DNA from: a virus
Direction: 5' to 3' (one strand)
Length of the DNA: 42,089 nt
Virus record (IMG/VR): IMGVR_UViG_3300030117_002482
Location: 1-42,089 of that record
Below are positions 18,035 to 31,455 of this stretch, one piece after another. A model generated the notes under the pieces. That model was given only the letters and a program-made list of their open reading frames with translations. It made no database searches and had not been told where the DNA came from. Position 1 is the stretch's first letter; every line of letters starts with the position of its first letter. Made by a program: the position numbers and the translations under genes.

Positions 18035-18277
18035 CTAATTACCCCTTCTTGATCTTACAATTTTAAATTCTTCACTTTGTTTTTTAGTGTGCTTACTCTT
18101 TTCGCTCTTTGTCATTTTAAGCCAACACTTTTCTAGTGCGTTTATCGTAGTATCATACCCACTAGCAGTTCCACAAAATGTTCTAGTTATGTTATCGTTT
18201 TTACCAGTTTGAGGATTATACCTTGATTTACAGCAAAAAGGACAAACAGTATTAGTTAAGCTACAAAATTCAAACAT
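18035..18277 (-). CDS. Small Cys-rich protein, putative zinc binding
   Basis: An 80-residue protein with Cys at 5, 12, 15, 16, 35 and 51. CPFCCKSRYNPQTGK gives a Cys-x2-Cys knuckle. The C-terminus is basic (KKQSEEFKIVRSRRGN). It could be a small zinc-binding regulator. It is followed after 2 bp by another Cys/His protein. The start lacks a strong ribosome site (AGAG only). It is downstream of the terminator hairpin that closes the preceding gene. Confidence 0.55.
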   Translation of the reverse strand: MFEFCSLTNTVCPFCCKSRYNPQTGKNDNITRTFCGTASGYDTTINALEKCWLKMTKSEKSKHTKKQSEEFKIVRSRRGN

Positions 18278-24436: not shown

Positions 24437-24453
24437 AAATTATTTTTTCCTCC

Positions 24454-25742: not shown

Positions 25743-26018
25743 CTACTTACTCTCCTTATCTTTTATTAAATTCATTATAAACTCTTCACCTTTTTTAGTT
25801 TCTATGTACCCTCTAGTGTATATTACTTCTGTTTCTGATCTATCTTCGTTAGTGTGGCTTCCATAAGTTTCAAAATCCTCCACTATAATATCTTTTTTAC
25901 CTTTTACAATGCTATCAAACTCTTCGTTATCAATACATTGTTCAGCTTTAAAAAATACACCATCAAACTTTTTATTATCCTCTGTTGAATAAACATTATA
26001 TTCTACTGCATACCTCAT
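25743..26018 (-). CDS. Unknown protein under the structured leader
   Basis: A 91-residue acidic protein beginning MRYAVEYNVYSTEDNKKFDG, with VIYTRGYIETKKGEEFIMN near the end. No family recognised. Its ribosome site (AAAGGAG) follows the 3' side of the long RNA stem at 26047-26179, so its expression may be governed by that structure. Confidence 0.65.
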   Translation of the reverse strand: MRYAVEYNVYSTEDNKKFDGVFFKAEQCIDNEEFDSIVKGKKDIIVEDFETYGSHTNEDRSETEVIYTRGYIETKKGEEFIMNLIKDKESK

Positions 26019-26046
26019 TACTTACTCTCCTTTGTTTTTGTAAATT

Positions 26047-26184
26047 AAATAGATTATAGAACATACTTTGTTTATACCTTCTGGCGTAGCCTTCATCAGT
26101 AACCTCGGTGTGTTCCGAGAGACCTTAGATTTTACAGCACCACCCAAAAAATCTAAAATCAATGTTCTATAACCTATTTGTTTC
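26047..26184 (-). ncRNA. Candidate structured RNA / leader, about 140 nt
   Basis: Minus-strand RNA forms an 18-bp closing helix (26179-26162 with 26064-26047, one G-U). Inside are a 13-bp hairpin (26160-26148 with 26133-26121, two U-G pairs, 14-nt loop) and, abutting it, a 6-bp hairpin (26120-26115 with 26108-26103). Then comes a 38-nt strand with a GGC-UAC-GCC mini hairpin. All wobbles pair only in this strand. A GGAACA/TATATA promoter predicts a start near 26184, right at the helix. A 54-codon frame (26022-26186) overlaps it, but has no ribosome site, would be leaderless, and uses codons rare here. The region is richer in G and C than its neighbours. Confidence 0.55.
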
Positions 26185-26190
26185 ATTACT

Positions 26191-26220
26191 TATATAACTC
26201 TCTAGTTATTATTTTGTTCC
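26191..26220 (-). promoter_or_regulatory. Early promoter-like site driving the structured RNA (GGAACA / TATATA)
   Basis: Minus strand: GGAACA at 26220-26215, 18-bp spacer, TATATA at 26196-26191, directly after the stop of the 26226 gene. It predicts a start near 26184, just before the 18-bp helix. Confidence 0.55.
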
Positions 26221-26225
26221 AATAT

Positions 26226-28882: not shown

Positions 28883-29071
28883 CAATTATTTTAAATTATT
28901 TTTATTAGTGTGTGTTTGTGTGTGTGCCCTCCTTATATAATATAATATTATTATTAAAGCTGATAGAGTTTGTCATACTCATTGGCTCATATAATACGCT
29001 TAAATCACAGAACTCGACACTAGCCACATAATACTATCAGATTACAGAAATCGCCACGTATTACGTAAATT

Positions 29072-29200
29072 CTACCTACGTGCACAATCTACTTTAAATA
29101 CAGGATCTACGTACGTGCACATAATCTAATAAAACTACCTACGTGCGTGCACATTTCAAAATAATACTACTTACGTGCACATCTACTTACGTGCACAACC
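29072..29200. repeat. Iteron-like array, five copies of CTAC-N-TACGTGCACA
   Basis: Copies begin at 29072 (CTACCTACGTGCACA), 29107 (CTACGTACGTGCACA), 29135 (CTACCTACGTGCGTGCACA, 4-bp insertion), 29167 (CTACTTACGTGCACA) and 29183 (CTACTTACGTGCACA). All face the same way, spaced 35, 28, 32 and 16 bp. The core GTGCAC is itself a palindrome. Direct repeats of this kind bind replication or partition proteins in phages and plasmids. Confidence 0.8.
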
Positions 29201-29220
29201 TATTAAAAAATATATAAATT

Positions 29221-30757: not shown

Positions 30758-30809
30758 AATATTGCTAAAACAAGTTTATTCCTGTAGTACATTGTTCATT
30801 ACAGGATCA

Positions 30810-30859
30810 AATAACACTCTATAATTTCACGCATTATATAGATAGTTCACGGTGTTATT
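30810..30859. repeat. Nested inverted repeat
   Basis: Outer arms AATAACAC (30810-30817) and GTGTTATT (30852-30859); inner arms TCTATA (30818-30823) and TATAGA (30837-30842). The arms adjoin on the left and are separated by 9 bases on the right. Could be an operator or a hairpin in either strand. Confidence 0.45.
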
Positions 30860-30969
30860 TTAATGCTTCAATCTTAATATTGCTATCTAAGGATACTCTA
30901 TAAATTATTTCACTCTTACATACTTCACAATCTATAGAGCCCGGCCCAGCACTAGCGGTGCAATGCATT

Positions 30970-31307: not shown

Positions 31308-31455
31308 TACTATAAAAAAGTACTTGGCGGGTACTATTTACTACTATATATTACTATATAATACTATTAATACTATATAATACTATTTAATACTATTTAA
31401 TACTATTACTACTATATACTACTATAATATTACTATAGTACTATTATATTACTAT
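31308..31455. repeat. Phased TACTAT repeat array
   Basis: Fourteen TACTAT boxes at 31308, 31332, 31342, 31352, 31362, 31371, 31381, 31391, 31401, 31410, 31420, 31431, 31439 and 31450. From 31332 the spacing is 8-11 bp, mostly 10, so the boxes lie on one face of the helix. This is typical of curved DNA or an array bound by a multimeric protein. It stands about 90 bp upstream of the packaging operon, so a packaging (TerS) or replication site is plausible. Confidence 0.75.

Follow-up and report, generated by a model that had tools for sequence, protein, structure and literature searches.

Introduction

Searches for the accessory genes of phages nearly always look for proteins. The locus considered here raises the question of whether a product of another kind may lie among them, i.e., whether the stretch between an early promoter and the small gene that follows it contains a structured RNA and, if so, whether this RNA would serve the gene as a leader or be a product in its own right. 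The DNA comes from a virus and was analysed over 42,089 nucleotides (IMG/VR virus record IMGVR_UViG_3300030117_002482, positions 1 to 42,089), a stretch hereafter called the window. An earlier note, drawn up from the sequence, had placed on the minus strand of its early block a candidate structured RNA with a promoter of its own, a proposal upheld by the fold, the rank of the promoter and the missing coding signature. The phage group concerned is marine and abundant. If it is true that this group swaps small structured RNAs at promoter-proximal sites, a layer of host takeover or counter-defence escapes gene callers, and a promoter motif followed by a closing helix would provide a simple search layout for further such RNAs.

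The elements surrounding the RNA, in the order of transcription, are as follows:

26186..26222, minus strand: early promoter, with -35 TTGGAAC (26222-26216), -10 TATATA (26196-26191) and the conserved tail AAGTAA
26022..26186, minus strand: 54-codon open frame overlapping the RNA, probably not a gene
26019..26038, minus strand: spacer and Shine-Dalgarno sequence (AAAGGAGAGTAAGTA) of the 91-aa gene
25743..26018, minus strand: early gene of 91 aa, function not known, downstream of the RNA

Promoter and predicted transcription start

Relatives of the phage, designated below by L numbers, were gathered via a 676-aa late protein and the DUF932 protein. Their early promoters form a family of the type TTTGGAAC-(17-19)-TATAAT, and the site upstream of the RNA belongs to a subfamily of consensus TAaTTTGGAACTTTTAAnAAaTAGTGTAGTTAAATAAGTAAaca. 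Scored with a matrix that draws on 29 promoters, all from relatives and none from the window, this site (26223) reaches 24.1 bits and takes second place in the window, and the best nine matrix sites in the window are all located on the early strand. The RNA thus has a promoter of its own, as had been claimed, and the predicted start is indeed positioned just ahead of the helix, since the spacing from the -10 box places transcription initiation at about 26184 and the first helix, P1, runs from 26179. The leader preceding the Shine-Dalgarno (SD) sequence and start codon measures 165 nt here, compared with mostly 13-39 nt in one set of relatives.

Promoter-like repeated stretches occur across the early block of the window, where minus-strand members of the family (-35 TTGGAAC, -10 TATAAT) are found, e.g., at 24439, 26223, 26880, 27110, 27850, and 28885. 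The GGAAC of the -35 element resembles the -35 of ECF-type sigma factors and is combined with a -10 element of the sigma-70 type. On the same strand, a 15-bp complementarity with one G-U pair links 26384-26370, inside the upstream gene, with 26210-26196, in the promoter region of the RNA; such pairing could mask this region in read-through transcripts.

Predicted fold of the RNA

Folding prediction for the minus strand gives a multi-hairpin RNA of about 135 nt, extending from about 26183 to 26047, the ends of which are joined by P1. Its parts are the following:

26179-26162 with 26064-26047, minus strand: P1, helix of 18 bp with one G-U pair (predicted fold)
26162..26179, minus strand: 5' arm of P1, starting about 5 nt past the predicted transcription start
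26121..26160, minus strand: P2 hairpin (26160-26148 with 26133-26121), 13 bp with two G-U pairs
26103..26120, minus strand: P3 hairpin (26120-26115 with 26108-26103), 6 bp with one G-U pair
26065..26102, minus strand: junction UUACUGAUGAAGGCUACGCCAGAAGGUAUAAACAAAGU, containing a weak GGC/GCC mini-stem
26047..26064, minus strand: 3' arm of P1 (predicted fold)

The P2 hairpin has a loop of 14 nt, in which an optional inner stem of 3 bp is predicted, and is abutted by P3, whose loop reads AACACA. The 18-bp helix, the hairpins of 13 and 6 bp and the GGC-GCC stem described in the earlier note were all found at their positions, the last being weak (26091-26089 with 26085-26083; present in the minimum free energy (MFE) structure, missing from the centroid). 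On the minus strand, the MFE is -45.8 kcal/mol (z -5.17), a value equalled by none of 200 shuffles, compared with -33.2 kcal/mol (z -3.45) for the plus strand of the region. In total, four G-U pairs (one in P1, two in P2, one in P3) can form in one strand only; these had been counted correctly and taken as the sign of an RNA rather than of DNA symmetry, with which the asymmetry of the fold between strands agrees. The G+C content, said to be above that of the neighbours, is so only weakly, i.e., about 34% in the 54-codon frame against about 30% in early genes.

That an 18-bp match is improbable by chance had also been claimed, and here the outcome depends on which helices are counted. Helices of at least 18 bp, of any composition and with unlimited G-U pairs, arise at about 0.2 per strand in shuffles of the whole window, and the window itself has two more helices of 18-19 bp, both G-U-rich (6 and 8 pairs), so that the length of P1 alone is not decisive. 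The claim does stand for helices with at most one G-U pair: when the 173-nt region was shuffled 400 times, the longest of these reached 14 bp against the 18 bp of P1, and, apart from P1, no helix outside simple TA repeats has at least 17 bp and at most two G-U pairs over the 702 kb of the window and relatives. In a window-wide folding scan with regression-based z, the region gives one of the two strongest independent signals, some coding stretches being nearly equal. The paired structure is very unlikely to be accidental, a claim for which the thermodynamic score by itself is insufficient.

The overlapping 54-codon frame

The ATG of the open frame (26186-26184) belongs to the tail of the promoter and the region of initiation, no later than the predicted transcription start, and has no SD at the usual spacing. 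The codon score of the frame, -0.024, is close to that of spurious frames (-0.032) and lower than that of 27 of the 28 early genes (0.151 +/- 0.076 for early genes), and its G+C content over the three codon positions is 0.33/0.35/0.33 compared with 0.41/0.27/0.24 in early genes. Neither tblastn against the phage collection nor a scan of IMG/VR returned a homolog of the frame. On the other side, its openness exceeds chance, frames of 50 codons or more occurring in just 0.14% of shuffles of the region, and its end falls inside the SD of the next gene, as in neighbouring genes. The frame is without a coding signature and is probably no gene.

Search for relatives of the RNA and of the downstream gene

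No known class could be assigned to the RNA, in agreement with the earlier note: Rfam 15 gave no match at the gathering cut-off in the whole window, and the low scores obtained at E up to 10, IS605-orfB-I and others, were rejected as chance level. Homologs of the RNA were likewise missing from the phage collection, from 80 early-region loci searched by local blast and, as an exact 29-mer, from GTDB genome contigs; in two sets of related records, of 47 and 37, DNA searches returned short chance matches only. The titles and abstracts of the papers found do not name it. As such, the RNA is supported by its fold, its promoter and its position and not by conservation, being a single sequence. The hits of two pattern scans in IMG/VR were set aside, namely 10 unrelated loci matching the P1 arm without the remainder of the RNA, and three copies of a single unrelated sequence matching a degenerate pattern of the junction with its mini-stem.

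Judging by the layout of the sequence, the 91-aa gene would be co-transcribed with the RNA, as no terminator lies between the two. In the folded ensemble, the SD core of the gene, AAAGGAGA, is unpaired. Two homologs of the gene were found, in L012 (62%) and L225 (71%), and none in genome contigs. In the former, a promoter of the same type is followed by a short leader of the ordinary kind, and the RNA is missing; the latter is located directly behind another coding gene, with no leader and an upstream fold of z +1.0. On these sequences, the RNA does not qualify as a conserved regulator of the 91-aa gene. For most of the small genes at about 23.2-27.8 kb, the relatives contain few homologs or none, and this block is thus hypervariable.

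Structured RNAs at the same position in relatives

The longer leaders of the relatives were inspected for structure, and the parallels found with the RNA of the window are parallels of position and layout, not of sequence. In L126/L163, arms of 17 nt with one G-G mismatch pair right behind the promoter; in L131/L157, an insert of 68 nt has the closing helix GGCGAGG/CCTCGCC; and in L151/L152, an insert has the closing helix TAAGCGT/ACGCTTA. The inserts of L131 and L151 lie in the leader of the DUF7249 gene, a leader that is bare (TATAATAAGTAAACAAACAATAAAAGGAG) in L163, L170, L171, L187, and L191 and filled at the same point in L131 and L151. The inserts, at 18049 (-) in L126, 2553 (+) in L131 and 6707 (+) in L151, are mutually unrelated and situated between an early promoter and an SD.

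A further RNA, tRNA-like and of about 155-205 nt, is conserved in at least 10 records (L115, L140, L030, L154, L158, L163, L168, L186, L195, and L197). It is closed by GAGCCGA...TCGGCTC around variable inner hairpins, exhibits a T-arm-like GGAGGTTCGACTCCTCC and the pattern GAGCCGA...GGAGGTTCGACTCCTCCTCGGCTCA, and lies behind the same early promoter, usually with a second promoter downstream of it for the following gene. Within the loci scanned, ARAGORN reported no tRNA or tmRNA and Rfam did not recognise it. In L147, at 11534, the ending is a different T-arm-like hairpin.

The RNA of the window shares with these elements a family promoter directly upstream, a closing helix near the start and an optional presence at the gene. 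From the -10 box to the first helix there are 11 nt in the window and 7-9 nt in L126, L131, L151 and the tRNA-like RNAs. Given these parallels of layout, an accessory RNA cassette is the simplest reading. The presence of the RNA, as far as the compared loci indicate, is optional: homologs of the 91-aa gene occur without it, and other structured RNAs are found at equivalent places in relatives.

Proposed mechanism and alternative explanations

Taken together, we lean, though only somewhat, towards the element being an accessory cassette for a structured early RNA, that is, RNA cargo cleaved from its transcript and acting in trans. In this scheme, the fold, the promoter, the missing coding signal and the parallels in position come from computation, and the processing, the action in trans and the target are what we infer. 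Host polymerase would start at about 26184 at the early-family promoter, and the first 135 nt would fold at once, P1 joining the 5' and 3' parts with about 5 nt left free at the 5' end and enclosing the two predicted hairpins, P2 and P3. With no terminator on its way, the polymerase would read on into the 91-aa gene, the RNA forming the 5' portion of that gene's mRNA; the ribosome site of the gene would stay open and permit translation from the same transcript. The helix locking its 5' end would stabilise the RNA, which would probably be cut from the mRNA and may then act in trans early in infection on some host or phage target. Action in trans is favoured by analogy with the tRNA-like RNAs that carry a second promoter downstream. 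In bacterial mRNA turnover, a locked 5' end should resist 5'-dependent decay, and a secondary effect on the stability of the mRNA is likely with or without action in trans. It is a tentative and rather doubtful extension that the phage group carries exchangeable RNA cargo of diverse structure, including the tRNA-like RNAs and, as one unique item, the present element, set immediately behind a standard early promoter, gained and lost in the manner of accessory protein genes and with host functions or defences as presumed targets. Against the cassette stand the single sequence without homolog, the openness of the frame, a folding z nearly matched by some coding stretches, the lack of a terminator or known processing site, and the sequence difference from the other inserts, with which only position and layout are shared.

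A first alternative is a leader acting in cis only, where P1 would shield the 91-aa mRNA from 5'-end-dependent decay or set its translation with no function in trans. Such a leader fits the continuity between P1 and the gene, which are separated by neither a second promoter nor a terminator, as well as the few unpaired 5' nucleotides (about 5), the accessible SD core and the inserts of L126, L131, and L151, which share the layout. It is nonetheless unlikely, for the protection of an end needs neither P2 nor P3, the homologs of the 91-aa gene have no such leader, and the tRNA-like RNAs, usually with a promoter of their own plus a second one for the gene, point to RNA as the product. A ligand-sensing riboswitch of the 25743-26018 gene, which the earlier note had entertained, is very improbable. 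The multi-hairpin shape closed by P1 upstream of the SD would suit it, and CUCUC in 26121-26117 could pair with GAGAG of the SD, but the ground state leaves the SD open, a conserved core is not known, Rfam gave no match, and a dedicated riboswitch role is above all disfavoured by the two homologs, L012 and L225, which are both without the element.

A small gene for a 54-aa protein, the mRNA of which would be structured incidentally, draws on the rarity of so long a frame in shuffles, on its end in the SD of the next gene and on the dense coding of the rest of the block; it is improbable in view of a codon score like that of spurious frames, a G+C content equal over codon positions, an ATG at or before the predicted start with no SD at the usual spacing, and the lack of homologs. 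As for a remnant of a mobile element with 18-bp terminal inverted repeats, or a chance palindrome, the near-perfect inverted repeats at the ends and the appearance of an insertion relative to canonical leaders would be accounted for, whereas the G-U pairs specific to a single strand, the inner hairpins and the placement exactly behind a promoter would not, and neither a target duplication nor further copies were found; this reading deserves hardly any credence.

Comparison with known RNAs

The phi29-type pRNA (RF00044) is an early phage RNA of similar size, in which paired 5' and 3' ends surround a multi-hairpin body. The resemblance to the element is one of layout only: the window has no Rfam match, none of the features of membership was found, and the terminase of the phage falls in ordinary large-terminase families. 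With the tRNA-like cassette of the relatives, the element shares the promoter type, the spacing from start to helix, the size range and the helix closing the 5' and 3' ends, but there is no sequence similarity, the GGTTCGA T-arm motif, which together with a 7-bp acceptor-like stem marks that cassette, occurs nowhere in the window and ARAGORN reports nothing there. In the junction, CUGAUGA precedes a small stem and GAA, an arrangement that recalls hammerhead and other self-cleaving ribozymes; this candidate was rejected, as there is no A15.1-U16.1 pair, no stem III and no Rfam match even at E up to 10. More generally, small RNAs from the early regions of phages form a class that is the subject of a review (PMC12197685). 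The likeness of the element to this class is that of a predicted short structured RNA behind an early promoter and possibly acting in trans, the difference being that the element has no relative here in sequence or structure.

Other structured RNAs and repeats of the early block

The same search uncovered a covarying leader RNA family, type A, which is missing from Rfam. In the window, it occupies 30764-30873 (-) as the first early leader, upstream of the DUF932 gene, and has in common with the 26183-26047 element the phage, the strand and an early-type promoter upstream. The two are distinct, however, as the model of type A, R1, matches 30764-30873 only in the window. Type A is represented by 24 distinct sequences that can be aligned without gaps and exhibit compensatory changes in 20 of the 22 named pairs; 98.7% of cells pair, compared with 82.3% in shuffles and 25-51% with slid partners. 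Its invariant loops are CGUGAACUAU, CAAUGCGUGAGAU and AUGAmCAAUGUAC, and R1 recovers type A from 31 of 80 DUF932 loci, including one divergent case. On this comparative evidence from sequences, type A is better supported as an RNA than the 26183-26047 element.

Just upstream of type A, at about 30900-30950 (-) of the window, a type B leader hairpin has the loop TTGTGAnGTATGTAAGArTGAA. It is also present in L131, L136, L199, and others; in relatives, type B is combined with a hairpin CTACCTGATCGTAGAA...GGGTAG and replaces or accompanies type A. Several repeats were observed in addition. Iteron-like direct repeats with the core GTGCACGTAxGTAG are located at 29071-29209 of the window, where they adjoin a terminator-like hairpin that follows the 29273-29680 gene; they are also found behind the DUF932 gene in L131, L115, and L012, and might possibly be a replication origin or an array binding a regulator. 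Tandem repeats of the TACTATTTAA type precede the first early promoter at 31332-31444, and relatives contain arrays similar to them. Finally, an inverted repeat, TTCAAATGTCAAAGAC...GTTCTTTGACAATTTGAA, at 31018-30969 (-) of the window, extends over the -10 and start of the first early promoter and is a candidate operator or hairpin; the matching inverted repeat in relatives is TATAATAGTCAAAGAC...TCTTTGACAATTATA.
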